From positions 1 through 64,000 of the forward strand of contig CALXOZ010000009.1 of the NCBI GenBank assembly GCA_944390195.1: a stretch of DNA of 64,000 bases, read 5' to 3'. The translations under genes were made by a program, and so were the position numbers. The DNA is from an uncultured Alphaproteobacteria bacterium (lineage in GTDB: Bacteria; Pseudomonadota; Alphaproteobacteria; CAAGCB01; CAG-977). The first letter of the stretch is position 1, and every line of letters begins with the position of its first letter. Positions 6,532-45,622 of this stretch are shown here, piece after piece. The notes beneath the pieces are model-generated. The model saw only the letters and a list, made by a program, of their open reading frames with translations, had not been told where the DNA came from and made no database searches.

Positions 6532-6802
6532 TAAGCTTCTCTGTATATTGTTTTTCTTTGAAGTAAATCGGCGTTTCGCAATAAACAGGACGAGTCATAA
6601 AGCCTTGACATAACAGAACGTGCCGCCCGAACGGGATGGATCCCCAATCGGCGACACTCATCAAATCGCGCCCCTCAATGTTTTGAGAAACGGACGAGCC
6701 GCATTTGCTTGATCTTGACAGGCTTTGACGTTTGGCGGTCGTTTTGCCGGTCATTTGAGACAGTTCTTTTTGCGTGTTGAAGTTGTTTTGCGCGTAAACC
6801 AT
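6524..6802 (-). pseudogene. C-terminal part of trbJ-like gene in a shifted frame
   Basis: This 92-codon frame overlaps the end of the trbJ/virB5-like gene in another phase. Its residues (QNNFNTQKELSQMTGKTTAK) continue what looks like the natural helical C-terminus of the TrbJ/VirB5-like protein, whereas the tail of the upstream frame after KLLLFNG turns into basic low-quality sequence. The frame ends where trbL begins, with overlapping stop and start. The simplest reading is one ancestral gene (6524-7454) with a frameshift near 6795-6815. A separate coupled gene starting at ATG 6802 is the alternative. Confidence 0.45.
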
Positions 6803-7454
6803 TAAATAGGAGCAGTTTGTTTTGATTTTCCATAATCGTTAAAGACGTGTTCGTGTCCCGAATGATCGAGCTTGCCGCTTTTGACAGCGTGTTTGCTTCA
6901 GCTTTAACCGCCATGGCGTTCGCCAAACCGTCGTCAACGCTCTTTTTATGAAAGTCCGTGCGGGCTTTCTTGACTTTCCGCCACTGCGCCTTTGTTTTGT
7001 TTGAACCCGTCGTAATGCCCCGCCAGGAATAACTGCCGCCGATTGTGCCGGCAACAGTGTTCAAACCGTTTTGAATGTCGGTGTCGGCAGGCAAATCCAA
7101 CGCCTGCCTGATGTAATCCTGTGCCGTGCAAATGTTCGTGACTTCAAAATTCGCTCCGTTCAAGAGAAACTCCGGCGTAACGCATTGAAGCAAATGATCG
7201 GCGTTTGTGATAAAGCTTTGCGCCGTCAACGCCAGAGAAACCGCGCCGCCGACCGTGTCCGTGATCTGTTTTGTCGCTTCCAGTCCTTCTTTGGTCGTGT
7301 TCCAAAGAGCCTTGCCGTTTTCCAAAATCGCCGCCATTGTCGCGTTTTGCTTGATGCTTTCCGCCAAGCCGTTCGTGTCAATGACAGCCATTTGAGCACT
7401 CGCCGTGCGAGCGAAAAATAAAAGACAAACAGTTAAAAATAGAAGCATCCCCAT
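6675..7454 (-). CDS. TrbJ/VirB5-like conjugal transfer protein, probably frameshifted near its 3' end
   Basis: A 259-codon frame with an N-terminal signal peptide (LLFLTVCLLFFARTASA, cleavage near AQM), then an alpha-helical secreted protein containing a central WRGITTG stretch. VirB5/TrbJ family proteins sit at the tip of the conjugative pilus. The last 45 codons are basic and unlike a pilus protein. The expected helical continuation lies in the frame 6524-6802, which suggests a lesion around 6800. The gene precedes the trbL-like gene, the same order as in Trb-type conjugation clusters. A terminator-like hairpin (7465-7494) separates it from the cas2 end. Confidence 0.6.
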   Translation of the reverse strand: MGMLLFLTVCLLFFARTASAQMAVIDTNGLAESIKQNATMAAILENGKALWNTTKEGLEATKQITDTVGGAVSLALTAQSFITNADHLLQCVTPEFLLNGANFEVTNICTAQDYIRQALDLPADTDIQNGLNTVAGTIGGSYSWRGITTGSNKTKAQWRKVKKARTDFHKKSVDDGLANAMAVKAEANTLSKAASSIIRDTNTSLTIMENQNKLLLFNGLRAKQLQHAKRTVSNDRQNDRQTSKPVKIKQMRLVRFSKH

Positions 7455-7462
7455 TCCTATGC

Positions 7463-7496
7463 AAAAATAACGAAGCTCTTACAGCTTCGTTATTTT
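7463..7496 (-). terminator. Hairpin between cas2 and the transfer genes
   Basis: An inverted repeat AATAACGAAGCT / AGCTTCGTTATT with a short loop, followed on the + strand by TTTT and preceded by A-rich sequence, so it can act in both directions. It would end the long leftward cas transcript before trbJ. Confidence 0.55.
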
Positions 7497-7600
7497 ATGC
7501 CAGGCTTCCGTTATCGTTCAGTTCGGTTTCGGTGCATAAAGGGGAATTATGGTGCTCAAATACACAGATTGTTTTTTTGCAAAACGCGTTGCAGGTTCAA

Positions 7601-7930
7601 TCAAAGAAAGGAAAGTTGTTTGGCTGTTTGTATTTCATTTTTTGAAATTTCACCGACTAAAAGCTCCATTTTTTGATACTGATTTTCCGTAATGACCAGA
7701 ACACGAACGGATCCTTTTGCGGGCACGTATCGCCTTAATCGCATAATGTGTGTTTGAACAACGGCATCGCTACTGCAATATCTGGAATAGACGGAATACT
7801 GCATCATTAAGAACCCGTTTCCGATCAGGTCTTTTCTAAATCCTGCCGCCGCTTTTCTTTCAGATTTGTCCGTTGTGGGCAAATCAAAAAAAACGATCAC
7901 TCTTTTTTGTTGAGATTCAATCGCAGTCAT
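7601..7930 (-). CDS. cas2: Cas2 endoribonuclease, type II-like family
   Basis: A 109-residue Cas2 with the ferredoxin-like start VIVFFDLPTTDK (the Asp of the conserved FDLP motif present) and the central FRKDLIGNGFLMMQYSVYSR. The sequence style (KAAAGFRKDLIGNGF, MQYSVYSR, VLVITENQYQKMELL) is that of Cas2 proteins found with Cas9, not of those usually found with Csm systems. Cas2 dimers bridge two Cas1 dimers in the spacer-integration complex. Its start overlaps the cas1 stop by 14 nt. It is the last gene of the leftward CRISPR locus. Confidence 0.9.
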   Translation of the reverse strand: MTAIESQQKRVIVFFDLPTTDKSERKAAAGFRKDLIGNGFLMMQYSVYSRYCSSDAVVQTHIMRLRRYVPAKGSVRVLVITENQYQKMELLVGEISKNEIQTAKQLSFL

Positions 7931-8816
7931 TAATCAATTCGGGCAGGATCAGTTTTTCCGCATCATTTTCTTTCATTGCCGTGATAAAAGAACAAACCGT
8001 TTCTTCCATAGCATTTATCAGTACGGTTTTCTGTCCGTTAATACGACATTTCAGGTATAACAAAGATAACAATGTTTCTCGGATATCTTTTGTTAAAACA
8101 CTATCAGTTAAAGGCATCATTTTTAATACGGCCCGATCGGTAAAAGCTCTGTAAGGTTCTATTAAATCGTCAGCCAAATTAAAATTATTTAATACGCTGT
8201 GATGATGAATTCCCAGGCTGGCAATCAAACCGTGAGCCGTAATATTATTAATCAACACATTTCTGAAAACAGCGTATCCGTAATCCAGCGCCGCGTTAAT
8301 GGTATCTTCGCTATGTCGAATGAATGTCCGTCCGAACAGACATTCCCAATAAAGTCTGGCGGCGACAGCTTCGGCGTTTTCGGAATCCCCGGAAAGGACG
8401 TTTTTCGATATTTTTTGTAAGATAAGAGCCTTATCAGGATTGACGCTGTTTAAAACGAGACTTTGATTTACGATTTTTTGCTGAATATTCCTTTGCCAAA
8501 GTCTTTTTTGCAACGGTTTGGACATACCTGTTTGTAAAAAAGCAATTTCAGTTTGCCGCAAAGGCTTTCCCACAGGAGACAAGACGCTGACAGGTTTATG
8601 CTTCCCGTTACAAAAAATAACGGTTACGGCTTTTTCAGCCAATTCGGACATCAAAGTGCTTGTCAGAGAAATTTGTAAACTTTCCAGAATGACGACGGCA
8701 ATATCTTCCAACGGAAAGAAGAAAACCTGATCTGTTTGCTGTTGATGAAAACACAATCTGTTGTTGTTGAACGAAAGTTTTCCCGGAGTTTCGAATTTAA
8801 TAATGCGCCAAGACAT
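7917..8816 (-). CDS. cas1: Cas1 integrase, type II-like family
   Basis: A 299-residue Cas1. The N-terminal beta domain begins MSWRIIKF, with IPL-like strands and VIFCNGKHKPVSVLSP, a pattern typical of Cas1 from Cas9 systems. In the catalytic alpha-helical domain the acidic/His residues are visible: Glu in AVAARLYWECLFG, His in GLIASLGIHHHS, and Asp/Glu in LADDLIEPYRAFTD. It should integrate new spacers with Cas2. Together with Cas2 it forms a type II-like adaptation module beside type III-A effectors; no Cas9 or Csn2 is present. AAGGGAA precedes the ATG. Confidence 0.92.
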   Translation of the reverse strand: MSWRIIKFETPGKLSFNNNRLCFHQQQTDQVFFFPLEDIAVVILESLQISLTSTLMSELAEKAVTVIFCNGKHKPVSVLSPVGKPLRQTEIAFLQTGMSKPLQKRLWQRNIQQKIVNQSLVLNSVNPDKALILQKISKNVLSGDSENAEAVAARLYWECLFGRTFIRHSEDTINAALDYGYAVFRNVLINNITAHGLIASLGIHHHSVLNNFNLADDLIEPYRAFTDRAVLKMMPLTDSVLTKDIRETLLSLLYLKCRINGQKTVLINAMEETVCSFITAMKENDAEKLILPELINDCD

Positions 8817-8891
8817 TTTTTTGTTCCCTTAATCATATTCCGATTTTCAGCAAAGCATAAAAGAGGGATTTTTAAATAAATTTTGCTGAAC

Positions 8892-9332
8892 TTAATCGTC
8901 CCCAATGATAGTCCAACCATTTCCGTATGGGTTATTCGGGCTGTCAACGGAATACGGGTTTCCGGCACCGTAGGGATTGTTAATGCTGTCGGGGGAATAT
9001 TTACTTCCGTATTTTCCGTAAGGGTTTGATATGGATTCGGGATCATATTTATTGTTACTTAATTTTCCTCTGTAATTTCCCCGAGAATCATAAAGTTTAG
9101 TCGCATTGTCGGCATAAGGATTGTTAACAGATTTATCGCTGTAGGCATTACCATATTGACCATAAGTGTTATTGATGCTGTTCGGACTGTATTTATTGCC
9201 GTATTGCCCATAAGGATTTGAGACGGAATCCGCGTTATAAGGATTATTCGACAGTTTTCCAAGATATTGCTGAGCCATGACCTGATCAGGGAAAAATAAA
9301 ACAGCGAACAAGAATACAAACAGGAATTTCAT
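8892..9332 (-). CDS. Secreted NPYG-repeat protein inside the CRISPR locus
   Basis: A 146-residue protein with a clear signal peptide (MKFLFVFLFAVLFFPDQVMA, cleaved before QQYLG). The mature part is almost entirely short repeats built on NPYGxYGxxYSPxSINN. About six to eight units are visible, such as NPYGQYGNKYSPNSINN and NPYGKYGSKYSPDSINN, broken by two GKLSNN blocks. Similar Asn-Pro-Tyr-Gly repeat proteins occur widely in Proteobacteria without known function. The ATG at 9332 is chosen because GGAGAAA precedes it; a longer frame would run into the CRISPR array. It lies between cas1 and the trailer end of the array, so it could share transcription with cas1-cas2. A direct CRISPR role is not supported by the sequence. 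Confidence 0.72.
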   Translation of the reverse strand: MKFLFVFLFAVLFFPDQVMAQQYLGKLSNNPYNADSVSNPYGQYGNKYSPNSINNTYGQYGNAYSDKSVNNPYADNATKLYDSRGNYRGKLSNNKYDPESISNPYGKYGSKYSPDSINNPYGAGNPYSVDSPNNPYGNGWTIIGDD

Positions 9333-9420
9333 AATTGTTTCTCCATAAAATCTTTGAGTGTGAGTTATAAAAACGAACAAATAAATATTACGACAACAAG
9401 AAGACAAATCATGTCTGTTT

Positions 9421-9851
9421 GTTTTGCCGCCCTCAAGAAAACAGGGCATGTGAATTAACGGAAGTGACTCGCGGTGAGTCAGTTTTCGAATCCCCAAGAA
9501 ATCGGGGCATGTAAATTTTAAGGGTATTCGCCGGCTGTAAATGCCCTAAGTTTTCCAATCCCCAAAAAATTGGGGCGTATGAAACAACTCTATGTAAAAA
9601 AAGGCGATTAAATTTAGTTTTCCAATCCCCAAGAAATCGGGGCATGTAAATTCCCTGTTACTGGAAAGTAATATGGGTAGGGGTTTTCCAATCCCCAAGA
9701 AATCGGGGCATGTAAATTATTGGCTGGCGGAGAGTTGATTTTAACTTAAGTTTTCCAATCCCCAAGAAATCGGGGCATGTAAATTGAAAAAACTTTTAAT
9801 ATGATACTGAGAACAGTTTTCCAATCCCCAAGAAATCGGGGCATGTAAATT
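9421..9851 (-). CRISPR. CRISPR array, 7 repeats of 36 nt and 6 spacers
   Basis: Repeats start at 9421 (degenerate), 9482, 9550 (degenerate), 9617, 9683, 9750 and 9816. On the + strand the unit begins GTTTTCCAATCCCC and ends GGGGCATGTAAATT with an 8-nt middle, so CCCC/GGGG form a hairpin. Spacers are 25, 32, 31, 30, 31 and 30 nt. Read on the - strand the repeat ends GGGGATTGGAAAAC. This resembles type III/Cas6 repeats, where cleavage under the stem leaves an 8-nt 5' tag (here TGGAAAAC by analogy). Degenerate repeats lie at the left, so the leader should be on the right, next to cas6, with transcription leftward like the cas genes. Confidence 0.97.
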
Positions 9852-9952
9852 CTTTATGCTTCAACCTTTTGATATTTAATATTAAAAATTGTTTTTTTAC
9901 TATAAAAAAACATGACAACACCCCCATTTTTTAGACCGTTCTTTTGTTTTTT
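9852..9952 (-). promoter_or_regulatory. Probable CRISPR leader
   Basis: An AT-rich 100-nt stretch between the last intact repeat and the cas6 stop. It adjoins the conserved end of the array, away from the degenerate repeats, as expected for a leader with the array promoter and Cas1-Cas2 docking site. No -10/-35 pair could be assigned with confidence. Confidence 0.5.
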
Positions 9953-10885
9953 TCATGATAAACGTTTAATTTCATATTTTCCCATGCCTAAGACGGCACT
10001 TTTCCCGATATGGAAATATGTCCCTGTAACCATATACGGATACAATTGTGTTAAATTTCCTTTTAACGTAAATTCACCCATTATGCCCCCCAGTGCAATT
10101 TTCGTTTTTTGACGCGAAGAATAGCGTGACCAATCGAACCAGTGGAGTGTCGCTTGTGTTAAATCCGCCGTTTCAATGTCGGAACGCAATACGTTAAATT
10201 CAATTATTGGAAAAGTCGGTATATGTTGTTTCGCTATGGTTTGCTGGCGGCGAATTACGGCAATCAAAAAATCTCGTGCTGTCAATTTTTCAGCTGAAAC
10301 GGGATGACCCTGATGTTGTATGCGCAAAGGTGTTGTTAATCGGATCTGCATGGCTGTGGTTTTCTGTTCTTCCGGCAGGGAAAAATCGAATTTCGCAGAA
10401 ACAGTTTCCGCATCTGCATCTTCAAAGTCGTATAACAGGGCGATACTTCCGTTTTCAAAAACCTGATGCACTTGGATCAACCGTGCTTGTGTGCGTTCTT
10501 TGGTAAAACCCATATTGCCCGTTTTCGACCACGCCAACAAAATATATGACAGCTTGTCAACAGCGGTGCCGAACAACAAATGATGAAATGTAAAAATCTC
10601 TCCTTGTTTGATGATTTTCTGACCCATCGGCATCGGTTCGATAACATAAGGGTTAGTCATTTCTTCGCCTTTGGAAACAGCAATATATCCGTTTTCAAAA
10701 ACAGCGGCGTAAGGACATGTTGATAATGCGGCGCAACCGGCACAATCTTCTTTTTTTGCCAGACAGGACACTTGGCGCAAAGACTTGCCGAATATACCGC
10801 GTAACGCCGAACCGGCATACACCGGAAAGTTCATGTCCTGCAACGCACGAAACGTCAGGCGTAATTTGATCAAAGGAAATGTCAT
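9953..10885 (-). CDS. cas6: Cas6 pre-crRNA endoribonuclease (RAMP)
   Basis: A 310-residue Cas6 of the large, cysteine-cluster family. The N-terminal RAMP fold includes a cysteine group (CLAKKEDCAGC, then CPY) near residues 45-60. The C-terminal glycine-rich region carries GGIMGEFTLKG and IGKSAVLGMGKYEI, typical of Cas6 repeat-RNA nucleases. It should cut array RNA below the CCCC/GGGG stem. The ATG at 10885 is preferred (GAGGAAG upstream) and overlaps the csm5 stop as ATGA. It lies between csm5 and the array leader. Confidence 0.88.
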   Translation of the reverse strand: MTFPLIKLRLTFRALQDMNFPVYAGSALRGIFGKSLRQVSCLAKKEDCAGCAALSTCPYAAVFENGYIAVSKGEEMTNPYVIEPMPMGQKIIKQGEIFTFHHLLFGTAVDKLSYILLAWSKTGNMGFTKERTQARLIQVHQVFENGSIALLYDFEDADAETVSAKFDFSLPEEQKTTAMQIRLTTPLRIQHQGHPVSAEKLTARDFLIAVIRRQQTIAKQHIPTFPIIEFNVLRSDIETADLTQATLHWFDWSRYSSRQKTKIALGGIMGEFTLKGNLTQLYPYMVTGTYFHIGKSAVLGMGKYEIKRLS

Positions 10886-12123
10886 TTTACTTCCTCGAAT
10901 TCGACAACGCACCACCCGAACGGCAATCTTTCTTTGCCATCGTTCGCAAACCAGTATGTCGTCGCGTGATTATCAAAACGTGCCGGTTTATCTTTTCCTT
11001 GCATGATTCTGATCTTCCGCATACCATCTATTGTCTTGCTTTCCGCGCCACCATGCTTGCCAAGGCAAAGTAAAAACGCTTGTCTCGGTCTTTCATTCGA
11101 TTTTCGGATCCGGTTAAATAAATCCGCCGGAATGCCGTGCGTGTGAACCTGCTGATCTTCCTGATCAGAAAGAATGTCCGTATAAAAATCATTACAGGCT
11201 TTTTGTATGGATGACATATCTTCGCAAAATGATCTATTTTGCATAATTAACAAAGATGATTTAAAAACTGTACCGGGCGGAATGACTTCGATATATGTTG
11301 ATATTCCTTTTTGATCTAAAAGTTTTCCGCTGTTACGTTTGACGTTTTCGGCTGTATCAATGCTGGTTATAAAGGATTCTGTTGCGTGTCCGTCTTCAAT
11401 CTTTAAAGCCTTGAAAGGATCTTCGGTTTGATCTTTATAATTATATAGTGTTTTTTCGGCATCGTTGGCTTTTTGATATAACTCTTTATTTAATCGCACC
11501 CGTTCGTTTCTTGCAGACATCAGGGCCGTTCGGATCGCTCCTTTGATTGAAGACCCCGGAATGTACGGCAAGCCGGTTACGGCATCGGAAATCTGCTTTT
11601 CAATATTGAAACGCGCGAAATCATTGTTTTTGCTGCTGACTTTTCCGAATTTTTCTTCGTACTTCTTTGCAACCTCCCGACAGACGATAGCCCGTTTCGT
11701 TGCCGTTTTGACAATAGCCGCGGCTTTGCTTTTGAAAAAGCTTTGCAAAGCCATAAGCTCTCCTTTGTTCGCTTCTTTAAGTAAAAGTGCTTTTTCCGTA
11801 GGGGAAAGTGCGTCCGATAATTGTCCAGGTGTGAACGTGTACAAATAACTGTCCGGTTTTTTCTCCGGTTCTGATTTTTTCACAGAAATGGTTTGTCTGG
11901 GCAAATCATAAGCGCAAGCGCCACAGTATGTCGATCCTGCCGGATTTTTATATCCACATTCCGGACATATAATAATGGTTTTTTCTTTCTGTTGATCTGG
12001 TTTTGAAGTTCTTTTTTCCGAATAAATGGCATATTCAGTTGGTTCCAAATCCGTAGAGGCTCCGATATGTATGGGCGATAATACGGTGATCTTCAATTTG
12101 TATGTTTTCATAAATTCTGTCAT
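10882..12123 (-). CDS. csm5: Csm5 (type III-A RAMP) with embedded zinc ribbon
   Basis: A 413-residue Csm5. The N-terminus KLKITVLSPIHIGAS and the central GLPYIPGSSIKGAIRTAL are classic RAMP motifs of Csm5. The family caps the crRNA 3' side of the Csm complex. Unusually, residues about 40-75 contain a four-cysteine zinc ribbon (Cys53, Cys56, Cys67, Cys70: CPECGY...YCGAC) between the first RAMP strand and the rest. Csm5 proteins I know lack this. Both ends overlap neighbours as ATGA (csm4 upstream, cas6 downstream), so translation is coupled. Confidence 0.88.
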   Translation of the reverse strand: MTEFMKTYKLKITVLSPIHIGASTDLEPTEYAIYSEKRTSKPDQQKEKTIIICPECGYKNPAGSTYCGACAYDLPRQTISVKKSEPEKKPDSYLYTFTPGQLSDALSPTEKALLLKEANKGELMALQSFFKSKAAAIVKTATKRAIVCREVAKKYEEKFGKVSSKNNDFARFNIEKQISDAVTGLPYIPGSSIKGAIRTALMSARNERVRLNKELYQKANDAEKTLYNYKDQTEDPFKALKIEDGHATESFITSIDTAENVKRNSGKLLDQKGISTYIEVIPPGTVFKSSLLIMQNRSFCEDMSSIQKACNDFYTDILSDQEDQQVHTHGIPADLFNRIRKSNERPRQAFLLCLGKHGGAESKTIDGMRKIRIMQGKDKPARFDNHATTYWFANDGKERLPFGWCVVEFEEVK

Positions 12124-13058
12124 ATCGCTGTTTCCTTTGCCGTTAGTCCGATGACGGGCGCATATCCTTGAAAAACGGTTCTGTCATCTGTCAATGAAAC
12201 ACCTTTTATGCCCTTACCGGTAAATAAAGGGGCTTTATTTGCTTTTTGTTTCGGTGTCAATACTGCTCCGGTATCCATCGTCAACACAGGAATTTTAAAC
12301 GGATTGTTTGATAATGCCGCTTTATTGCCATGCCTGCCAAAACGGACGAAGACTTTATAAAACGATCTGTCCTCATCAAATTCGTTTCTTTCCGGCACGC
12401 ACGGCGCAAGTGTCAGCAATGCCGTATAGTGTGGATTATCAAACGAAATGCGTTTCATTGATTGAACTGAAAACTTGCCGCCGCCGGATGAGGCTTTTTT
12501 ACCGTATCCCGTCAGACCGATCTGTTCAAACAACCCCTTGACTTCATCAGCGGTTATTCGGTTTTCGTCAATGACGGCATATACGCTCAATTCCCCCTGA
12601 TAGTAAAATTGATCCGTCATATAAGCGGAATATTTGCCGCCGCTTGCGTGATTCGTTTCAGGATTGACGCTGTTCGCCGTTTTTAAGGTTTTTTTGATGA
12701 ATAAAACTTCGGCAAAAGAATCTCCCATCTGATTTGTCGGCAAAGCAATCTTATCTGCCGGTAACCATTCGCGGCGTTTGAATTTCTTGCGATTTTTGAC
12801 ATCAAATTCATCGTCTTTTTGCCCTTCTTTTTTATAATACGAAAAGGGCAATACGGGTTTGGGAAAATAGCCTTTCGGAAAGGCGTCCGATAAGACTATA
12901 TACGGGCGGTTGTCCGTATATCCTTCTAATAATGTTGTCAGTCGATCTGACCCGAAACGTTCCATAATCGCCCAACAAAACATACCGAACAGTGTATCTC
13001 CTTTTATTTGTGTATAAAATCCGCCTGTCGGAGCTATGTCAATTTGATATAATTCCAT
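12120..13058 (-). CDS. csm4: Csm4 (type III-A RAMP)
   Basis: A 312-residue Csm4. The N-terminus matches the family, with IAPTGGFYTQIKGDTLFGMF, and later GYGKKASSGGGKF, the glycine-rich RAMP loop. Csm4 binds the 5' tag of the crRNA and contacts Cas10. The ATG at 13058 gives the family start MELYQI and follows GGGACAG; an upstream in-frame start at 13106 would overlap csm3. Its stop overlaps the csm5 start. Confidence 0.88.
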   Translation of the reverse strand: MELYQIDIAPTGGFYTQIKGDTLFGMFCWAIMERFGSDRLTTLLEGYTDNRPYIVLSDAFPKGYFPKPVLPFSYYKKEGQKDDEFDVKNRKKFKRREWLPADKIALPTNQMGDSFAEVLFIKKTLKTANSVNPETNHASGGKYSAYMTDQFYYQGELSVYAVIDENRITADEVKGLFEQIGLTGYGKKASSGGGKFSVQSMKRISFDNPHYTALLTLAPCVPERNEFDEDRSFYKVFVRFGRHGNKAALSNNPFKIPVLTMDTGAVLTPKQKANKAPLFTGKGIKGVSLTDDRTVFQGYAPVIGLTAKETAI

Positions 13059-13071
13059 ACTGCTGTCCCGA

Positions 13072-13713
13072 TTAAACAAATCTGTTTTCAAAAGGTTTGA
13101 CGGCATCCAAATCGGCTTGAATGTCTTTGCCGTCCAGTTTCAATTCTTCGAATTTCACGCGACCGTAACCGCGGGATCCTGATCCGCCTAAAGCGTCCAT
13201 TTCCAACAGTTTCATCGTTCCCAATACCTGCGGGATAACATTTTCGTCATCATATTGTTTAACGGTCAGTTTGAAATCAAATTCCGAACCGGGCAATACG
13301 CGTTCCGTGTTACGCGGATGTTCTGCAGTTCCAGTTATACGGCTGATCATGTTTTCCATTTTAACTTCAGTATAAAGCATTTGCTTTTTGTTGATGGTTT
13401 CTTTCCAACCTTGTGTTAAAAAACAGTCCCAAAATGACAGACGTGCCGGTTTGACATCTTTTTGATCGCCGCTTGATCCGAATAATTTAACAACGATTTC
13501 TGCATTATCGTTACCACCTGTATATAAACGCAGCAAACTGCGCATTTTGCCTTTCAGAGAAGATCCGGGAATGTACGGTTCGTTTGTAGCGGCGTTTTTG
13601 ATGACGGGATTATCCGTTCCGCCGATGTGCATTTCCGTATTCCCCGAACCGATGTGCAATCCCGTAACGACTTTGATTTTTCCGGTGATCATTTTCATTT
13701 CAAATTTTATCAT
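13072..13713 (-). CDS. csm3: Csm3 backbone RNase (type III-A RAMP)
   Basis: A 213-residue Csm3, normal length. It has GKIKVVTGLHIGSG, then GGTDNPVI, where Asp34 matches the catalytic Asp that cuts target RNA at 6-nt intervals, then PYIPGSSLKGKMRSLL and the glycine loop LGGSGSRGYGRV. Target-RNA cleavage should therefore be active. AAAGGAA precedes the start. The gene lies 14 nt after csm2 and 13 nt before csm4. Confidence 0.93.
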   Translation of the reverse strand: MIKFEMKMITGKIKVVTGLHIGSGNTEMHIGGTDNPVIKNAATNEPYIPGSSLKGKMRSLLRLYTGGNDNAEIVVKLFGSSGDQKDVKPARLSFWDCFLTQGWKETINKKQMLYTEVKMENMISRITGTAEHPRNTERVLPGSEFDFKLTVKQYDDENVIPQVLGTMKLLEMDALGGSGSRGYGRVKFEELKLDGKDIQADLDAVKPFENRFV

Positions 13714-13727
13714 GGCAGGAATTCCTT

Positions 13728-14195
13728 TTATTTTGTTGGACGGTATTGTTTGTAAAAGCCCATTATTGCTTCCATAAACAGTTTGGCGTTGTTTAGTGTG
13801 TCTTTGTCTTTGATCTGATTGATCAGTTTGTTGAGAAACTGCTGAAAAGTCTTGTCAACATTTTCACGACCTTTAGCATAGGCAACTTTTGATTTCATCA
13901 TATACACAAAAGGTTCGATATCTTTAAAATCTGTATTTGTCTGTGCGCGTTCGTTCCACATGACCAGTTCATCATAAAAACGGCGAAGCTGTGTCGGCAT
14001 GTTTTTTGTAAGTTGATTTTCACCACGATAATTTTTTTCAATATTTCCTGCATCATCCATTTTATAAGCAATTTTTTTTGCCCATTCAGATGCCGTTTTA
14101 TCAAACAAATCCTTTGTCAAATTTTTGACGTCAAAGTCCAATGGATTTTTCTTTTGAGGTGATGGTTTTAACGTCAAAGTTTTATTATCAGTCAT
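13728..14195 (-). CDS. csm2: Csm2 small subunit (type III-A)
   Basis: A 155-residue, mostly helical, basic protein in the csm2 position. It has the family-like helices TQLRRFYDELVMWNERAQ and a C-terminal LNNAKLFMEAIMGFYKQY. Csm2 (Cas11) forms the inner filament of the complex. The N-terminal 25 residues are polar and probably disordered. It overlaps the cas10 stop by 8 nt. Confidence 0.85.
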   Translation of the reverse strand: MTDNKTLTLKPSPQKKNPLDFDVKNLTKDLFDKTASEWAKKIAYKMDDAGNIEKNYRGENQLTKNMPTQLRRFYDELVMWNERAQTNTDFKDIEPFVYMMKSKVAYAKGRENVDKTFQQFLNKLINQIKDKDTLNNAKLFMEAIMGFYKQYRPTK

Positions 14196-16719
14196 TTTGT
14201 TCCTCTCTTTGTTGGTAAAGCCAAGTGAATAAGGCTATTTTGTAATCCGTTTTGTATTTTGCGATAGCGTTTCCTATTTCTTTGGCTATCGTGTCGGCAA
14301 GAACTTGTTTCTGTTCAGTATCAAAATCTTTTAACGTTTCCACAAAGCGGACGGTTTTATAAACCAGTTTCGAACGCCACATCGCGTTGGAAAGATTTTT
14401 TCCTTTTTCCGCTTCTTGCGCCTGATCGCACAGCGTTTGCAGGCTATAGACATATCCGATTGACAAATTGTATTTTGCTTTCATGTCATCCAAACGGTGC
14501 TCCTCCGTCATCAGGTTATCGTAATCGGCAAAGCTGACCGTTTGTCCGAAGCAACAGACGGCGTTTTTAGTGGCGTTTTCTTCATTCGGATATTTTTTCG
14601 CTTTTTCCAAAGCTTCTTCCGTCATTGTTGACATGGTAATCACATCTTCGCCCGATCCCGTCATGCACATGCCGATCGAAAACGTAATGTCTTCACGATT
14701 ACAGACATATTCTTTGAATTTATTGCGCAGTATCGGAACCATTCTGATCTGGTCAAGCCACGGTCCGATTAAATAAAAATCGTCTCCGCCCGCGAAAACG
14801 GTATAAATGTTTTCCGCATTTTTCTCGCTTTGGCACAGCCACGGCAACCAGATCGTAAAGAAATTGTTCAGTTGGCGGCTTAATCCTGCCAGTGTCGCAA
14901 AAGTCGGTGTTTTAATGCCGGTTTGCAACAAAGATCCCAGATTGTCGATGTCGCCTTTGATGCTCATGACGGCGGATTTTACAACCTTTTTCCCGTCTTT
15001 GACGTAGCAATCAATTTCTGCCAAATCGGAAAACGTTTTGATGTTATTGTTCTCATCGCGCGGCACATAGGCGTTGATGTATCTTCTCGCCTGTCCGTTG
15101 AACAAAGCTTCATCCGCGCTTTCCGGCAAGGAAATATCCCAGCGGCGCAAGGCTTTCTCGGCATTCTTTTTCCACCCGATGTAAAAACCGAAAATATCGG
15201 ATTTCCAACCGCCTTCAACCGGTTCGGCGGATATGGTCATACAAGCCTTTTTTGTCAGATTTTCGCCTAATTGCAAAATGTCCATACAGCTTTGGCAGGC
15301 ATAAGCGGGTTGCCGATCCGAATTTTCTTCCGTGTCATAGTTGTTGACTGCAGTTTCTGCCGGCATTCTGCCGTCAAAACAACAGATGCCCATTTGCTTG
15401 TCATAATTATCGGCGAAAATTTTCATTGCTCCGGCGTTTTCCGCGCATAAATTGAATTTTTGCAATTTCGCCTTGCCCAAAGAACGGAATATCTTTTCTT
15501 GCAAAGCGGCAAATCCTTTTGCTTCAAAATCGCGTTGAGACGCTTCGATTGTTGCTAAACCCAAAGAAACTTCGCCGTAGTATTTCTTTAAAAACCACGC
15601 ATTAAGCTCTTTTTTGATTTTTTCGATTTTTTCAACCGTTGCCGGCGTGTTCGGGGCAACAATAATAAATTTCCCCGCCGCATTCATAATTTGTGAGGTG
15701 GAAGGCAAACCGATTTCCTGCAGCACTTTCAATGCCGCGCATTCGGAAAACAACGATATTAAAAAAGACCGTCCCCGCAACAGCTTGTAGGCGTTTTTGC
15801 GCGTATGCTTGCCGACGTCAAAAATAAAACTCTGAATGCCTGAAACATCGCCTTGAATCAACAAGAATTTTTTCTCTTCTTTGTTGTCCAAAGCCTCTTG
15901 CGTTTCAGTTTCCGTTTCTTTGTGATAACGCCATAAAGCCGTTGCCAAAGCGGCCGTGCTTTTGGAGTGGTCGTACAAAGATACGTCCGCTATTGTGCCG
16001 AATGCCGTCGCGGAAGGAATGTTCTGGGTATAAACGGAATAAAGCGTGTCAAAATGATCCAGATACAAATCCCAATTTTCGCGATCGTGGATTTTTTTGA
16101 CGTCTTCGACAAAAGCGTTCCATAAAGCCAGATATTCTTTTCTCGCTTCCTCTATCGTCAGATGATGCCGCAATTCAGGAAAAATGGCGGCGGGCGATAA
16201 CGGTTTTAACGGATAACGGTATTTCAGCGTGTCGGGTGTTGAATTTTCTCGTTTGTCCGTTTCGGTGGAAAGCTTGTCAAACAAGGGGATTAAGCGGGCA
16301 ATCTGATATTTCTCGCCATCTTTTTTTTCATTGTATTTTTCGTAATCGGAACGTTCGAAAGCACTCGAAAGACGGTCGGCGATACAAACAATTTTTTGTA
16401 AATAAGAGGACGGATTATGATGTGCCGCCGCCGCTCTGATAATGGAATCATCCGTGTCAGTCTGTTGAAAAGGGTAGGTGTCCGCATCGCCTTTGATCGC
16501 GGGCAGGGATTTTTCGATCAAATCAATCGCAATTCCCGTGTAAGCCGCGTGCGTATGCGTAAAGTATCCCTCTTTATCGTTAAAAGGGCAAAATGTATGT
16601 TGATTTTTTTCTTTGACATCCGGCGCAAGTTCAATCTTCGCTCGTTCGGCGAACTTGCCGATGTCATGGATCAAAGCCGCAAAAGCGACCCTGCAAGACG
16701 GATAAAGATATTCGTTCAT
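14188..16719 (-). CDS. cas10: Cas10/Csm1 large subunit with HD and cyclase motifs
   Basis: An 843-residue Cas10. The N-terminal HD nuclease motif is intact (ALIHDIGKFAE, residues about 14-24, then later histidines in FTHTHAAYTG). The cyclase-type Palm has VFAGGDDFYLIG near residues 640-650, with the GGDD that makes cyclic oligoadenylates. A zinc-binding cysteine pair ACQSCMDI lies in the middle. Both target-activated DNase and second-messenger synthesis are therefore expected. Its start overlaps the csm6-like stop (TGATG), so the two are coupled. Confidence 0.95.
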   Translation of the reverse strand: MNEYLYPSCRVAFAALIHDIGKFAERAKIELAPDVKEKNQHTFCPFNDKEGYFTHTHAAYTGIAIDLIEKSLPAIKGDADTYPFQQTDTDDSIIRAAAAHHNPSSYLQKIVCIADRLSSAFERSDYEKYNEKKDGEKYQIARLIPLFDKLSTETDKRENSTPDTLKYRYPLKPLSPAAIFPELRHHLTIEEARKEYLALWNAFVEDVKKIHDRENWDLYLDHFDTLYSVYTQNIPSATAFGTIADVSLYDHSKSTAALATALWRYHKETETETQEALDNKEEKKFLLIQGDVSGIQSFIFDVGKHTRKNAYKLLRGRSFLISLFSECAALKVLQEIGLPSTSQIMNAAGKFIIVAPNTPATVEKIEKIKKELNAWFLKKYYGEVSLGLATIEASQRDFEAKGFAALQEKIFRSLGKAKLQKFNLCAENAGAMKIFADNYDKQMGICCFDGRMPAETAVNNYDTEENSDRQPAYACQSCMDILQLGENLTKKACMTISAEPVEGGWKSDIFGFYIGWKKNAEKALRRWDISLPESADEALFNGQARRYINAYVPRDENNNIKTFSDLAEIDCYVKDGKKVVKSAVMSIKGDIDNLGSLLQTGIKTPTFATLAGLSRQLNNFFTIWLPWLCQSEKNAENIYTVFAGGDDFYLIGPWLDQIRMVPILRNKFKEYVCNREDITFSIGMCMTGSGEDVITMSTMTEEALEKAKKYPNEENATKNAVCCFGQTVSFADYDNLMTEEHRLDDMKAKYNLSIGYVYSLQTLCDQAQEAEKGKNLSNAMWRSKLVYKTVRFVETLKDFDTEQKQVLADTIAKEIGNAIAKYKTDYKIALFTWLYQQREEQND

Positions 16720-18029
16720 CAGTTGTTATCCTTAAATGTGTTCATAAATAAAGCGGCATTTAGCTTGGACTGGGATTCTTCTTCCCCGACAATCAGACGA
16801 AGCTGTTCTATCAGAGAAGTAAAAATAGTTTTTAATTCCTGAGCGTTTTTGACACGGGAAGAGTATCCGTGAATTAAAATAGAGTTGTTGCGTATGTCTG
16901 CAATTATTGCGTCAGTGTTTTGCAGATAAGCTGTTTTTGGATGTTTGAGGTAATCTAAAAAGTCAATGACTTGTTTTCTGCCGAACGGCGGATAAATATC
17001 AGTGTTATCTTTTTTTCTTATGCGGTTGTTTTCCGCAAAATCACGCACTTTGGGATCGGAAGCGGACATGTGATTTGAAATGTATCCTTCTTTAAACAAA
17101 TAAAATTGTCCCAACATTTCCGCAATACGATAAGCGCGAATGGCGGCGTCTTCATATTGGCCTGAATCCAACCGGCGCAAACCGTTCGCATATAAATCAA
17201 ACATCATGTTTAAAACAATTGAGGCGTTTTCCTCCAATTGGTCATGTGATAAAACCTCATGTTTTTTTTCATCGGGTTCGATAACGAATTTTGATAAACC
17301 GCTTATCCAGTTTTGAACCGTCGGTGTTGTGGCAAAGCCGAAAGACGGCATTTCAAAAACGGGACAAATATCGGCGGCGGTTTTATAATCCAAACGATCC
17401 CAAGCGGAATAAAAATCGGCCAGCATTTTGACATTATTGACCGTTATTTTTAATTTTTCTGTCGGTTTTTCAGTCGAAAGCAAAGATTTTGCCGCCGGGA
17501 ATTGCCATGTTTTAAACAAAATCCGACATTGATCTAAAACAGATAAACCGCGTGCGTAAGAAGCGTCAAAATTTTTAACGGTTTCTCCTTCGATCAAATT
17601 TCCGTTCTTATCATTGTTACGTTGAATATAATGGAAGTCGGAAACGCGATAACGCATACCTATAGCATACAATGCCGCGCTCATCGCTTTTGTGCCGTGT
17701 GTAAAATCAATGATGAAATCTTCGGCAGAAAAACCGTTTTTAAATAATGTTTGAAATTTCCCTTCAAAAAATTCGAAACATTTGTCCGCATCGAATTCCA
17801 TGTTTTTTTCCGGCAGGTCTTCAATGAAAACCTTAAGGGAAGCCTCATATTCCAGTTTGATGGCTTCGGCATTTTTTTTGCTGGAACCCGACGGGAAAAG
17901 GATAATGTATTTTACATTAGAAAAATCAATAGCTTTTCTTAATAAACGGTAATATGATTCTGGATAACCGATTTCTTTCGGGTTTCCTTTTCCCACAATT
18001 AAAAATAAGACTTTTTCACAACTAAGCAT
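16719..18029 (-). CDS. csm6: Csm6-like CARF-HEPN ancillary RNase (TIGR02710-like)
   Basis: A 436-residue protein. The N-terminal CARF-like part has VLFLIVGKGNP, IILFPSGSSKKNAE and the ligand-site motif DFTHGTKAMSAAL (about residues 105-120). The C-terminal HEPN RNase motif is R380-x6-H387 in RNNSILIHG. CARF-HEPN proteins bind cyclic oligoadenylate from Cas10 and then cut RNA non-specifically. It is the first gene of the leftward effector operon. The form resembles the TIGR02710 family more than classic Staphylococcus Csm6. Confidence 0.85.
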   Translation of the reverse strand: MLSCEKVLFLIVGKGNPKEIGYPESYYRLLRKAIDFSNVKYIILFPSGSSKKNAEAIKLEYEASLKVFIEDLPEKNMEFDADKCFEFFEGKFQTLFKNGFSAEDFIIDFTHGTKAMSAALYAIGMRYRVSDFHYIQRNNDKNGNLIEGETVKNFDASYARGLSVLDQCRILFKTWQFPAAKSLLSTEKPTEKLKITVNNVKMLADFYSAWDRLDYKTAADICPVFEMPSFGFATTPTVQNWISGLSKFVIEPDEKKHEVLSHDQLEENASIVLNMMFDLYANGLRRLDSGQYEDAAIRAYRIAEMLGQFYLFKEGYISNHMSASDPKVRDFAENNRIRKKDNTDIYPPFGRKQVIDFLDYLKHPKTAYLQNTDAIIADIRNNSILIHGYSSRVKNAQELKTIFTSLIEQLRLIVGEEESQSKLNAALFMNTFKDNN

Positions 18030-41198: not shown

Positions 41199-41753
41199 AA
41201 CAGAACAAAAGTAAAGGCGGCATATAGCCGCCTTTATTTATACAATCGAATTATGATCCGGATATATGGCTTCGATAAGTTTTGGAGTCAAGAAAGTTTT
41301 CCATTTTTGCAGTAAAGAAAACCGCTTTAGCGAGTCAGGAAGGATTGATGCGGAAGATATGATTATATGAAGTTCATCGGTGTTAAAGAAGCAAGAAGTT
41401 TTTATGATGAACAAGGCTATGAAGCAGATATTTTAAGTGTGTGTTGAAAGCTTTGATTGGTAAGAATTGCGGGAGCTCTGGAATGGAATGTGCGCCATTT
41501 AATTGATGAACAAATTAAATACAAAAGTGAACGTTTTAGCTTTGGAAACGATAAAGACAACACCGAAGATTATTCCTCTTTAACAAAAGAAAAATTCTTT
41601 GTCAGAATAATTCCCATTAAACCTCGGATACATGATCTGTGACACAGGCAGGGCTTTTCTGTAAAAGAAATTTATATCAGGTGTTTTTATTGAAAAAATT
41701 CTGTCTGTATATTAGTGGTTAGGCAGGAACTCTTTATATTGTTTACAACAGAA
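41199..41753. other. Gap with possible decayed regulator
   Basis: Short frames such as IAGALEWNVRHLIDEQI (near 41460-41520) resemble the C-terminal end of XRE-type regulators, but no helix-turn-helix precedes them. A dead regulator is possible. The IS1595 insertion begins at 41754. Confidence 0.3.
41210..41240 (+). terminator. Terminator of the yajC-secDF operon
   Basis: TAAAGGCGGC / GCCGCCTTTA hairpin followed by T-rich sequence. Confidence 0.85.
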
Positions 41754-41932
41754 GGCTGTGTTATCATTAACGGTTAACGCTAACTCCGTGCAGCCGTAGG
41801 CGGAACGGACGCTTGTCAGGCGAGTAGAGGGATGCCGCTCATCCATTGTCTCTTCCTGTGGGAAGACTCCCTGTTTTTACCCTTGACGTTGAAAGTGGAC
41901 ATGGGTTATGGAGGTAAAAAGGGAGAATTAAC

Positions 41933-42358
41933 ATGAAAAGAACAACAGTAAAAATAAGCGATGGGCATGTAGTCTATTCAGTAAATTATGATGTAGAAGA
42001 TAGCGATACATGTAGTGGTATCTATAAAGATCTAAATCATTTTCTTGAAACAATTTCCGGTTATAAAGATGACAATGAAAAAGACAACGAAATGTCAGAA
42101 GAGAAGGATGCTATTAAAATATTGAGGACGAGATGGTATGTGCGGTATTCCGCATCAGCAGAAGGTTTGAAGCGGAAAATAGTTAATAAGGTTCAACAAA
42201 TATGCCCCAATCACGATTTTAAGTGTCATGTGGTAGAAGCTATAAAGGGATTGGAATCCTTACAGTTAGATGAACAAACCAAAAATAAAGTGACGAAATG
42301 GCTTAAACTTCATCCTATGAGGACTATACTCGACGTATATCGTCAAAATCATAATTGA
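41933..42358 (+). CDS. IS passenger protein of unknown function, 141 residues
   Basis: A hydrophilic protein with an acidic middle (GYKDDNEKDNEMSEEKDA) and a helical C-terminal half (LKRKIVNKVQQICPNHDFKC; TKWLKLHPMRTILDVYRQ). No family was recognised. GGGAG precedes the ATG. It overlaps the convergent 42324-42527 gene by 35 nt. Codon use is less like the surrounding chromosome, as expected for cargo. Confidence 0.6.
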   Translation: MKRTTVKISDGHVVYSVNYDVEDSDTCSGIYKDLNHFLETISGYKDDNEKDNEMSEEKDAIKILRTRWYVRYSASAEGLKRKIVNKVQQICPNHDFKCHVVEAIKGLESLQLDEQTKNKVTKWLKLHPMRTILDVYRQNHN

Positions 42359-42527
42359 GATGCTCCTTTATCAAGGCCAGAAGTTTCTTCTCAAAGACCC
42401 CAGAATCCCCTCCCCAATGAACAGGGATAATATATGCGTCTACGTCTATATCATGTATAGGCCCTCCAGCCTTGGACATGAGAATACATGGATTTTCAAT
42501 ATACCTGATATCTGACATTAGTGCCAT
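42324..42527 (-). CDS. IS passenger protein of unknown function, 67 residues
   Basis: A small soluble protein: SDIRYIENPCILMSKAGGPI, VDAYIIPVHWGG, LALIKEHLNYDFDDI. A strong ribosome site CAGGAGG precedes the ATG, so translation is likely. It follows the XRE regulator gene in the same direction with a 36-nt gap and may form a pair with it. No family was recognised. Confidence 0.55.
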   Translation of the reverse strand: MALMSDIRYIENPCILMSKAGGPIHDIDVDAYIIPVHWGGDSGVFEKKLLALIKEHLNYDFDDIRRV

Positions 42528-42563
42528 AACAGCCTCCTGAAGTTAAAGTTTAACATGATGAAC

Positions 42564-42842
42564 TTAAGTTCTCCTCAATGGGGGACTTTTTTGTTCTTCC
42601 GCAAGTCTGTTGACTTCGGAAATGACTTCCAAGACGAACTCGTCAGGAGTTAACCCGAGAGCCTCACTCAAGTAGAAAAGGACGTTGAGAGTGGGGCTTT
42701 TCGTTCCAGCCTCCAGACTGGAAATATACGCACGTTCAATCATGGCAAGCTCTGACAGCTTGCGTTTGCTCAAGCCGAGCTTCGCACGTCGTTTACTCAG
42801 AACCGTTGCAACAGCCGCATTAAGATAGGGATACTTTTCCAT
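42564..42842 (-). CDS. XRE-family regulator (IS passenger)
   Basis: A 92-residue helix-turn-helix protein: LSKRRAKLGLSKRKLSELAM, then ERAYISSLEAGTKSPTLNVL, the classic XRE domain. GGAAGGG lies directly against the ATG without the normal spacing, so the transcript may be near-leaderless. It is divergent from the membrane protein gene at 42931 and likely controls both through the 88-nt gap between them. Confidence 0.8.
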   Translation of the reverse strand: MEKYPYLNAAVATVLSKRRAKLGLSKRKLSELAMIERAYISSLEAGTKSPTLNVLFYLSEALGLTPDEFVLEVISEVNRLAEEQKSPPLRRT

Positions 42843-42859
42843 CCCTTCCCATAGCTGAA

Positions 42860-42895
42860 AAATCTTGACTTGGCATGGGACAATAGTAACATAGC
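42860..42895 (+). promoter_or_regulatory. Candidate promoter in the divergent gap
   Basis: TTGACT followed after 16-17 bases by TAACAT lies about 40 bases upstream of the membrane-protein start, facing right. The XRE protein may bind here; no clear operator palindrome was identified. Confidence 0.35.
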
Positions 42896-42930
42896 CCCCA
42901 CGGTAAACATAAAACCTAAAGGTGTTCAGG

Positions 42931-43509
42931 ATGTCGAGGATTAATCAAGGTAATCAGGTAGAAGGTGTCTACAAAATAGTAGACGCTGCATCTGTAGCAA
43001 AAGGCTTTTTTTTAATACTAGTTCTAGGAGTTATTGCATATATTCTTGGTCAAGAAGCATATAAGGCGGGAAAACCCTTTAGCTTTGGTAATTATCCAGG
43101 TTCAACAATATGTATTATTTTGGCATTTCTATTCTTTTTAGAATTTCGTGCAAATCTAAAAGGTTATGTTGGAGATGTTGAAAGAGGAATACTTGAGTTC
43201 CCAGGTGGAGGATTAGAGCCAAAATCATTCTTTAGTTATTTTTCCCCATTTTATTGGATACAAGATTTCAGGAGATATGAATTATCCATCCATGAAATTA
43301 GACAATTAGATAAATCAAGTCATACTACCCGTAGTAAGGGTTCTGATGGGGAGACAAAAACATCTACATCATATTTACTTAGCTTGGATGGAAAATTTGG
43401 GGCGGTCGTATTTTCCTTCTCGTCAAAAGCAAAACGAGATGAACTGTACTCCCTACTCGTTAGAACAATACAGCAGTATAATGGAACCCTAGAAAACGAC
43501 TTCGGCTAG
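42931..43509 (+). CDS. IS passenger membrane protein, 192 residues
   Basis: Two hydrophobic helices (GFFLILVLGVIAYILG near 30-45; TICIILAFLFFLEF near 63-76) precede a soluble domain with YELSIHEIRQLDKSSHTTRS and TSYLLSLDGKFGAVVFSFSS. The layout resembles small bacterial PH-like or stress membrane proteins, but no family is claimed. The ATG at 42931 (AAAGGTG upstream) is preferred to GTG 42922. It converges on the transposase gene. Confidence 0.65.
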   Translation: MSRINQGNQVEGVYKIVDAASVAKGFFLILVLGVIAYILGQEAYKAGKPFSFGNYPGSTICIILAFLFFLEFRANLKGYVGDVERGILEFPGGGLEPKSFFSYFSPFYWIQDFRRYELSIHEIRQLDKSSHTTRSKGSDGETKTSTSYLLSLDGKFGAVVFSFSSKAKRDELYSLLVRTIQQYNGTLENDFG

Positions 43510-43515
43510 ACAGCC

Positions 43516-44519
43516 CTATCCCACCACAGGAAAAGCTGGTTTGGCGGCAACGTCATGCCAGCTTTCGTCAAGCCTGCATCGTATAAGATTCCTGATAATG
43601 CAGCTCATTGATGACCTTCGTTCTACAATAATTGCCTCCCAAGAAAGATAATTGTTAAGATACTTTGATGCTACTCCACAAAACTTCCTGATGCGACTGT
43701 GAGCAGCATTAATGCGTTGAATACTGTATATGCCCTTTACTCGTTCATCTCCTTTTATCTGAACGTGTTTAAGGCCAGCAGTTCTAGCAAATTTTCGATA
43801 AGCACTATCTTTATCAGTAACAAGAACCCTACAGTATTCTAATCTTTTCTTCATGATTTTATTCAAATCTGCATATGTTACGCGCCCACGTTTTACTGCC
43901 GTAGCATAGAGTTTACCTAAATTTCCACTAGCTGATGTCACACATATTTTATCGTCTGATACTCCTCTCTTGTCTGGAGTTCCTCTTTTCTTTGCATCAC
44001 GACCTTCTGGAGTTGATCCTTTATAGGAAAGAGGGAAAAACATGTCATCCATTTCCGCGACACCACGAATTTTAACCCCTTGAAGGTATTTATATACAAT
44101 ATCTAATATTTATATACAATATCTAATATTTTATGCCTCCAGTAAAAGGCTGTACTTGGACTTATATCACATATGATTGCAGAATTTCTTATTGTTTTAC
44201 CGTCAACCATACACTGAATATATGTCTTCCATACACTTAAGTCTTTCTGACTGCGTTGCAGAAAAGTGTCATGAAGTTCATTAAAACTTTTCTTGCATCT
44301 TTTACAGAAATAGCGTTGCATCCCATTTCTCTTTCCGTTTCGGACTACATGGGTGCTTCCACATTCAGGACAAGCCAGCCCATGAGCATTGGCTTTTACC
44401 CTGAGAAGTTCTTCTAGGGAGATGTCCTGATCTCTCTTGAGGTATGCTTGAAGCTCAAGCCTCTCATCTTCCGAGAGATGGGAGAGGAGATCCTTAATTG
44501 TTTTCAATACGTTTGGCAT
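43516..44519 (-). pseudogene. IS1595-family (ISXO2-like) transposase, split by a 20-bp duplication
   Basis: The N-terminal frame (44519-44103) has a zinc ribbon (CPECGSTHVVRNGK, YFCKRCKKSF) and a helix-turn-helix (ISPSTAFYWRHKILDI). The C-terminal frame (from 44052 to 43516) is the ISXO2-like DDE-type catalytic domain (MDDMFFPLSYKG; LVTDKDSAYRKF; NAAHSRIRKF). The 20-base unit TATTTATATACAATATCTAA is present twice in tandem (44087-44126). Removing one copy joins the frames exactly into LDIVYKYLQGVKIRGVAEMD. The lesion should abolish transposition. Confidence 0.93.
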
Positions 44520-44811
44520 GATTATTGCATTTGTTAGTGGTTTTGAGACTTTCTCTCATTTCCCCTAACTATACGCCATATCGTTCAGCTTGCCAACCGC
44601 CAATGATAATACAGCCCAACAGAAACACAGCATTTTAACTAAAGAATGAAAACCCTTAGACGAAAAAACAGATCAAATTTTTTTGTTTGAAAAAGGTTGC
44701 TTTTTGACTGATCATTAATATGCGATACTGTTTTTTTAATAATTTTGAATACAGAACGCGACTTGAATAAGAGGGTGTTTTTTTTACTTTATACACATCT
44801 GAAAAAATTAA

Positions 44812-44850
44812 AAAGCCCTCTGCAACTTTTATGAAAGCAGGGGGCTTTAA
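44812..44850 (-). terminator. Terminator of elbB
   Basis: AAAGCCCTCTGC / GCAGGGGGCTTT stem just after the elbB stop. The 190 bases between the IS end and this hairpin hold nothing recognised. Confidence 0.8.
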
Positions 44851-44862
44851 AAAGTTAAAAAA

Positions 44863-45519: not shown

Positions 45520-45622
45520 AGTTTTTTCCTTAACATAAATGAAAATCTTTGATGTTGTAATTATATACAAGTTGTATTTATATACAATCATCGTAAAGTA
45601 TAGCTCTAAAACGGAGATGAAA

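Follow-up and report, generated by a model that had tools for sequence, protein, structure and literature searches.

The window analysed here, a stretch of 64,000 nucleotides from an uncultured Alphaproteobacteria bacterium (positions 1 to 64,000 of contig CALXOZ010000009.1, GenBank assembly GCA_944390195.1), contains between secF and elbB a segment that carries four genes besides a transposase, which raises the questions of what kind of element this is and whether its passengers work together. The first can be answered with great confidence: the segment is a single-copy member of the IS1595 family with a transposase of the ISSag10/ISCaje5 group, and belongs to the insertion sequences (IS) with passenger genes that are termed ‘tIS’. 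For the second, the explanation that we favour on balance is a tIS carrying a repressor-controlled membrane module. IS elements with passengers have been described before, and the IS1595 family is a named example (PMC5704250); features of the family are given in PMC8101967, and the paper on the family is cited in PMC7986276.

Ends and transposase of the element

The element is made up of the following parts.

41754-44616: IS1595-family element, 2,863 bp, inserted between secF and elbB
41746-41753: left copy of the target-site duplication, CAACAGAA, 8 bp, an exact match to the right copy
41754-41775, plus strand: left terminal inverted repeat (TIR), GGCTGTGTTATCATTAACGGTT, 22 bp, 19 of 22 positions identical to the right end
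44595-44616, minus strand: right TIR, GGCTGTATTATCATTGGCGGTT (5' to 3' on the minus strand), 22 bp, 19 of 22 positions identical to the left end
44617-44624: right copy of the target-site duplication, CAACAGAA, 8 bp, an exact match to the left copy
44103-44519, minus strand: N-terminal part of the transposase (zinc ribbon and helix-turn-helix, HTH), 138 aa to a premature stop; 57.5 bits with NF050000 (cut-off 28); aligns with ISSag10 residues 1-136
43516-44109, minus strand: C-terminal part of the transposase (catalytic domain) in a separate frame; 84.9 bits with NF033547 (cut-off 75); aligns with ISSag10 residues 134-345
44087-44126, minus strand: 20-bp stretch repeated exactly in tandem (44087-44106 and 44107-44126), which disrupts the transposase frame

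The TIRs start with GG and are flanked by an 8-bp target duplication, as in the IS1595 family, and the genes between them that have no part in transposition (the four passenger frames) make the element a tIS. The octamer CAACAGAA is not rare by itself (6 occurrences in the window against 3.0 expected); identical octamers at both predefined outer edges would arise by chance with a probability of ~2e-5, given the composition of the window. An earlier reading made from the letters alone (the sequence-only reading) had placed an IS1595-family insertion at 41746-44624, where it saw both ends and an exactly duplicated 8 bp; these coordinates proved exact. When the 2.12-Mb genome was searched with the TIR pattern, exactly two sites were found, one per orientation, and both are the ends of this element; the element DNA has no second copy in the genome, and it is thus present as a single copy. 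The target duplication at the outer ends shows that the element once moved as a unit, of which one copy is known. It was not found in 143 relatives, where the sole other match was a 31-bp stretch, nor in any named genome of the searched collections, which may omit the window's own genome.

An N-terminal zinc-ribbon domain is present in all IS1595 groups except IS1016 (PMC8101967). The N-terminal part of the transposase scores well above the cut-off of the IS1/IS1595 zinc-domain model, and the C-terminal part exceeds that of the NCBIfam IS1595 model, which identifies it as an IS1595-type DDE transposase; with Pfam DDE_Tnp_IS1595 it reaches 25.8 bits, just under the cut-off of 27. The two parts jointly cover residues 1-345 of the ISSag10 transposase, with the break at residues 134-136, where the 20-bp duplication puts the N-terminal part (138 aa) and the C-terminal part (open for 197 aa) in different, overlapping frames. 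The copy therefore has no single intact transposase gene, and is a disrupted member of the IS1595 family. Because its transposase is frameshifted, it is probably immobile on its own, unless the 20-bp duplication is a sequencing error or is overcome by frameshift read-through, and it could probably move only with transposase supplied in trans. The insertion duplicated 8 bp of the target, and the transposase was split later by the tandem duplication. The sequence-only reading had missed this duplication and called the insertion ‘recent’, a dating that the split transposase leaves unsupported: the target-site duplication is intact, but the sole copy has a disrupted transposase and mismatches at 3 of 22 TIR positions, and there are no sister copies. 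By every structural test except that of an intact transposase, the window fits the tIS kind.

The passenger genes

Between the left end and the transposase lie four genes and one intergenic region of interest.

41933-42358, plus strand: passenger open reading frame 1 (ORF1), 141 aa, a soluble orphan, with AGGGAG before its ATG
42324-42527, minus strand: passenger ORF2, 67 aa, an orphan, with AGGAGG 6 nt before its ATG
42564-42842, minus strand: passenger XRE/Cro-C1 regulator, 92 aa; 45.1 bits with Pfam HTH_3 (cut-off 23)
42843-42930: 88-bp intergenic region from which the XRE and membrane genes diverge, with promoter-like TTGACT-16-TAACAT at 42865-42892 (plus strand)
42931-43509, plus strand: passenger membrane protein, 192 aa from the ATG at 42931 (195 aa if from the GTG at 42922), with distant homologues L007, L024 and L041-L043

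The four passengers named in the sequence-only reading (an XRE regulator, a two-helix membrane protein and two small proteins) stand. They look like real genes because host codon use favours the coding frame of each over the five other frames, and because Shine-Dalgarno-like sequences are found ~6-9 nt before the ATG of ORF1, ORF2 and the membrane gene; in the XRE gene, GGAAGGG directly abuts the ATG. The weakest passenger by length is ORF2, as 2.0 such frames are expected per random element; its case therefore rests on the AGGAGG sequence and on codon fit. It is found on the same strand as the XRE gene, 36 bp behind it, and its 3' end overlaps ORF1 by 35 bp, and the XRE gene is in turn divergent from the membrane gene. 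The base composition is 34% G+C in ORF1, 36% in the membrane gene and 48% in the XRE gene.

The passengers were searched singly in phages and viral contigs, and the membrane protein alone also in genome contigs; the only scan for passengers that was genome-wide was run with the membrane protein by itself and later with a profile built from two relatives, and ORF1 and ORF2 were searched in samples. In Pfam, NCBIfam, PHROGs and PADLOC, the XRE domain alone was recognised (its HTH_3 score, above the curated cut-off, places it in the XRE/Cro-C1 family), and ORF1, ORF2 and the membrane protein gave no match. ORF1 is likewise without a relative in the PDB, phages, plasmids and 349 genomes of the phylum, and ORF2 without a convincing one in plasmids and 299 genomes; for neither did any of the collections searched yield a convincing relative. 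The AlphaFold2 model of ORF1 has a confidence (pLDDT) of 37, and its identification as a known anti-restriction protein was rejected, the match to phrog_2568 being at E 0.037 only. As no search returned the set elsewhere, what is new is the combination of a repressor with a membrane protein and two orphans; the element itself is of a known kind.

The membrane protein has two helices at its N terminus, followed by a mainly beta domain and a helix at the C terminus. As a single query it found no match in genome contigs, viral contigs, phages or plasmids. Among 398 genomes sampled from the phylum, one has a distant homologue, L007; a search from L007 led to L024 (a gene of an Alteromonas plasmid), and three more, L041, L042 and L043, were found in genome contigs. 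A three-sequence profile had no match in viral contigs. When the five relatives are combined in a profile, the window protein reaches 30.3 bits, whereas the top score among 2,000 shuffles preserving the composition of its two halves is 6.2 bits, and the homology is therefore secure. It extends over most of the length at 24-28% identity, with N-terminal hydrophobic stretches in all members and the motifs FP..(x)E, YW, FG and KRDE in common. Unlike the window gene, these relatives are chromosomal or plasmid genes that lie outside IS1595 elements and are without the window's XRE partner. The AlphaFold2 model reproduces the order of two helices, beta domain and C-terminal helix, and solved structures of PH/PTB type recur among its Foldseek matches (probability up to 0.99, E above 0.05, for a model of pLDDT 57); Pfam gave no match for a PH fold, and a PH-like fold is a lead only. 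An identification as DsbG (E 0.13) was rejected.

The surroundings of the relatives are accessory and partly defence-like regions. L007 and L041 adjoin SIR2 genes, L041 being also beside an SbcD-like phosphoesterase and a protein that we take to be DUF262-like; L042 adjoins a NERD-type nuclease and a HipBA-like pair, and L043 a KAP-NTPase fragment. In the stretches read, neither ORF1 nor an IS1595 transposase is found beside them.

Related elements and the possible function of the cargo

Related elements were collected from plasmids, viral contigs and sampled genomes and were delimited by both ends and the target duplication. The N-terminal part of the transposase matched 58 plasmid records, with up to 44% identity among the best-ranked matches, and the TIR pattern had no match in viral contigs. 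Five are plain ISs of 1.02-1.06 kb without cargo (L063-L066 and ISAma5, the latter being L072), and the others carry the following.

ISSag10 copies, 1,725 bp: lnu(C)
Niallia element, 1,765 bp: DinB-type gene
B. glumae element, 1,501 bp: NTF2-like gene
L060 element, 1,928 bp: 99-aa membrane protein
L055 element (4912-7420), 2,509 bp: XRE gene divergent from a weakly TM2-like small membrane protein, plus a tRNA_anti-like protein
N. gonorrhoeae element (L034, 2396-5049), 2,654 bp: type IIG methylase fragment and specificity subunit; the transposase is also shortened
ISCaje5, 2,899 bp: methyltransferase, hypothetical protein and C-protein-like HTH
L059 element (4938-7934), 2,997 bp: AbiLi/AbiLii; perfect ends, duplication TTGTTAAT
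L056 element (4718-9153), 4,436 bp: type IIG-like restriction-methylase with a specificity subunit; the duplication agrees at 7 of 8 bp

MTnSag1/tISSag10 and tISCpe8 have been described as carrying lincosamide resistance, with 25-bp ends and 8-bp duplications, and as mobilisable by conjugative elements (PMC5704250); circular intermediates of MTnSag1 and its mobilisation by Tn916 are also reported. The window transposase belongs to the same family as those of these lnu(C)/lnu(P) elements (its N-terminal part is 42% and its C-terminal part 34% identical), and the window shares with them GGCTNTGT-type ends and a passenger region between the transposase and the far end. The 8-bp target duplication is likewise shared, that of ISSag10 in pHN61 being the AT-rich AAACAGAA. 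In contrast, ISSag10/MTnSag1 is 1.7 kb long, its transposase is intact and its single passenger gene is for lincosamide resistance; the window element lacks a resistance gene, carries four different genes and has a split transposase. ISCaje5, from a Campylobacter coli plasmid (NZ_CP082875), is like the window element in its size, its IS1595-like transposase (41%/33% identical), its 8-bp duplication and an XRE-type HTH in which 20 of 54 residues are identical to the window's XRE protein; unlike it, ISCaje5 carries a type II-like methyltransferase with the hypothetical protein and the C-protein-like HTH, and has no membrane protein.

Two elements from IMG/VR bear on the function of the cargo. 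L055, whose ends are perfect, has an IS1595 transposase, an 8-bp duplication and an XRE gene near the far end that is divergent from a small membrane gene on the strand opposite to the transposase, a layout that is the same as in the window. It differs in that the membrane protein is weakly TM2-like and is followed by the tRNA_anti-like protein, and in that the XRE proteins do not align. L059 resembles the window element in its IS1595 transposase, 8-bp duplication and non-resistance module, and differs in that its cargo is a recognised AbiL-like abortive-infection pair, here found on a simple transposon. Clear defence genes occur in four of the nine distinct cargoes (restriction-modification in ISCaje5, the N. 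gonorrhoeae element and L056, AbiL-like in L059), a proportion that comes from a small, non-random sample of plasmids and viral contigs and is not claimed as enrichment; by this comparison, it raises the prior that the window's cargo is of a defence type.

The divergence of the XRE and membrane genes over 88 bp, with the XRE gene and ORF2 only 36 bp apart, has the layout of an autorepressed switch, and this layout, together with its recurrence in L055, suggests that the XRE protein represses the membrane gene. It would act as an autorepressor that binds the 88-bp region, and repression would cover its own operon (XRE-ORF2) as well as the membrane gene; the TTGACT-16-TAACAT sequence as a promoter, and the region as a repressor site, are only suggestive. 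The membrane protein would be an effector or sensor with a two-helix anchor and a cytoplasmic, possibly PH-like, beta domain, acting on the membrane once the repressor is lost or inactivated, as by loss of the element or phage infection, and ORF1 would be a separate orphan gene.

That the cargo works in this way, as a small repressor-controlled and membrane-acting defence or addiction module, is a tentative proposal. The sequence-only reading had likened the set to such a module, and the likeness keeps some footing, in that relatives of the transposase repeatedly carry defence genes and relatives of the membrane protein lie near SIR2, HipBA-like, NERD-nuclease-like and KAP-NTPase-like genes, which gives it indirect support. 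Several results weigh against it. Searches of Pfam, NCBIfam, PHROGs and PADLOC linked none of the passengers to a known toxin, antitoxin pair or defence effector, and among known anti-phage systems the PADLOC models recognised no effector, with matches confined to the XRE domain. The same passenger set, which the sequence-only reading had suggested looking for in other genomes, was not found in plasmids or sampled genomes, so that no conserved partnership backs a functional unit, and L007, L024 and L041-L043 are without the window's XRE partner in the stretches read. Promoter-like sites are no commoner in the 88-bp region than in shuffles, the L055 regulator and membrane protein are not homologous to those of the window, and the membrane protein model is of low confidence, with no Foldseek match at E 0.001. 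A stronger version, in which the cargo is a new transposon-borne defence or addiction module whose XRE protein controls a two-helix PH-like effector, and in which this IS1595 group serves generally to carry small defence modules, is considered unlikely.

A serious competitor, if one short of probable, is that the passengers are a chance collection assembled piecemeal (an orphan, a regulator and a membrane gene), which confers a non-defence accessory trait or nothing and has no joint function. The cargo of related elements is indeed very mixed, ranging from lnu(C) to a DinB-type enzyme, an NTF2-like protein and a lone small membrane protein, and the differing G+C contents of the passengers are what separate origins would predict. 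The sequence-only reading had held that finding its passengers scattered among unrelated neighbours would count against a module, and this is partly so: the inspected relatives of the XRE protein are solitary regulators amid unrelated genes, and those of the membrane protein occur apart from them, without the window's XRE, ORF1 or IS1595 transposase. However, the divergent XRE and membrane genes and the close XRE-ORF2 pair resemble one regulated unit, and recognisable defence units make up four of the nine related cargoes.

It is improbable that the XRE protein and ORF2, encoded in one operon, are the antitoxin and toxin of an addiction pair and that the membrane gene and ORF1 are additional cargo. 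ORF2 is a small frame just downstream of the XRE gene with a strong ribosome-binding site, and the XRE domain is weakly similar to a Y4mF-type antitoxin model; but this best antitoxin match, at 32.6 bits, is far under the cut-off of 71.65, and ORF2 has neither a toxin-family match nor a convincing relative in the plasmids and genomes searched. No type II toxin or antitoxin family is recognisable in the pair.

Insertion site, neighbouring loci and meaning

The element seems to have interrupted no gene on insertion, since joining its flanks revealed no gene of at least 30 aa that both bridges the insertion point clearly and is similar to a known protein. No empty orthologous site could be demonstrated, as in every congener with a visible neighbour secF and elbB adjoin other genes; the intergenic flanks of the element have no match in relatives. 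In congeners, the gene that follows secF is, as we read it, M3-peptidase-like or FtsZ-like, and the one that follows elbB Sel1-repeat-like. Since secF (flank 41199-41745) and elbB (44625-44862) adjoin only in this genome, the region is a rearrangement point as well. These unmatched flanks, which meet only here, are what an assembly artefact joining unrelated contigs without any insertion would show, but such an artefact is most improbable, as a random join cannot give an exact target-site duplication beside both TIRs on one 69-kb contig and the same ends, likewise with 8-bp duplications, are found with relatives of the transposase.

An integron-type or structured RNA or DNA at the left end was rejected (z -0.19 as RNA and an unconvincing ~-2 as DNA, with no Rfam match). 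At 45554-45587, between elbB and thrC, a palindrome-like unit of 17 bp, GTTGTAATTATATACAA, occurs twice in tandem and is possibly an operator.

Some defence-related loci are found elsewhere in the window. A type III-A CRISPR-Cas locus on the minus strand at 7917-18029 encodes Cas1, Cas6, Csm5, Csm4, Csm3, Cas10 and a Csx1/Csm6-like protein, and its Cas1 has its best match in subtype II; a CRISPR array at 9412-9851 consists of 7 repeat copies, GTTTTCCAATCCCCAAGAAATCGGGGCATGTAAATT-like, at a spacing of 61-68 bp. A tyrosine-integrase-like gene is present at 2901-4220, and near it and the CRISPR genes a 583-aa protein (632-2383) that reaches 171.7 bits with the HEC-05 models of PADLOC is a candidate defence protein.

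IS elements with passengers have mostly been discussed for antibiotic resistance. Here, one transposase group carries restriction-modification and AbiL-like genes as compact units of 2.5-4.4 kb, and transposons of this kind may thus offer defence genes a simple way of moving among plasmids, phages and chromosomes. The window contributes a new cargo, which includes a membrane protein of an unnamed family.

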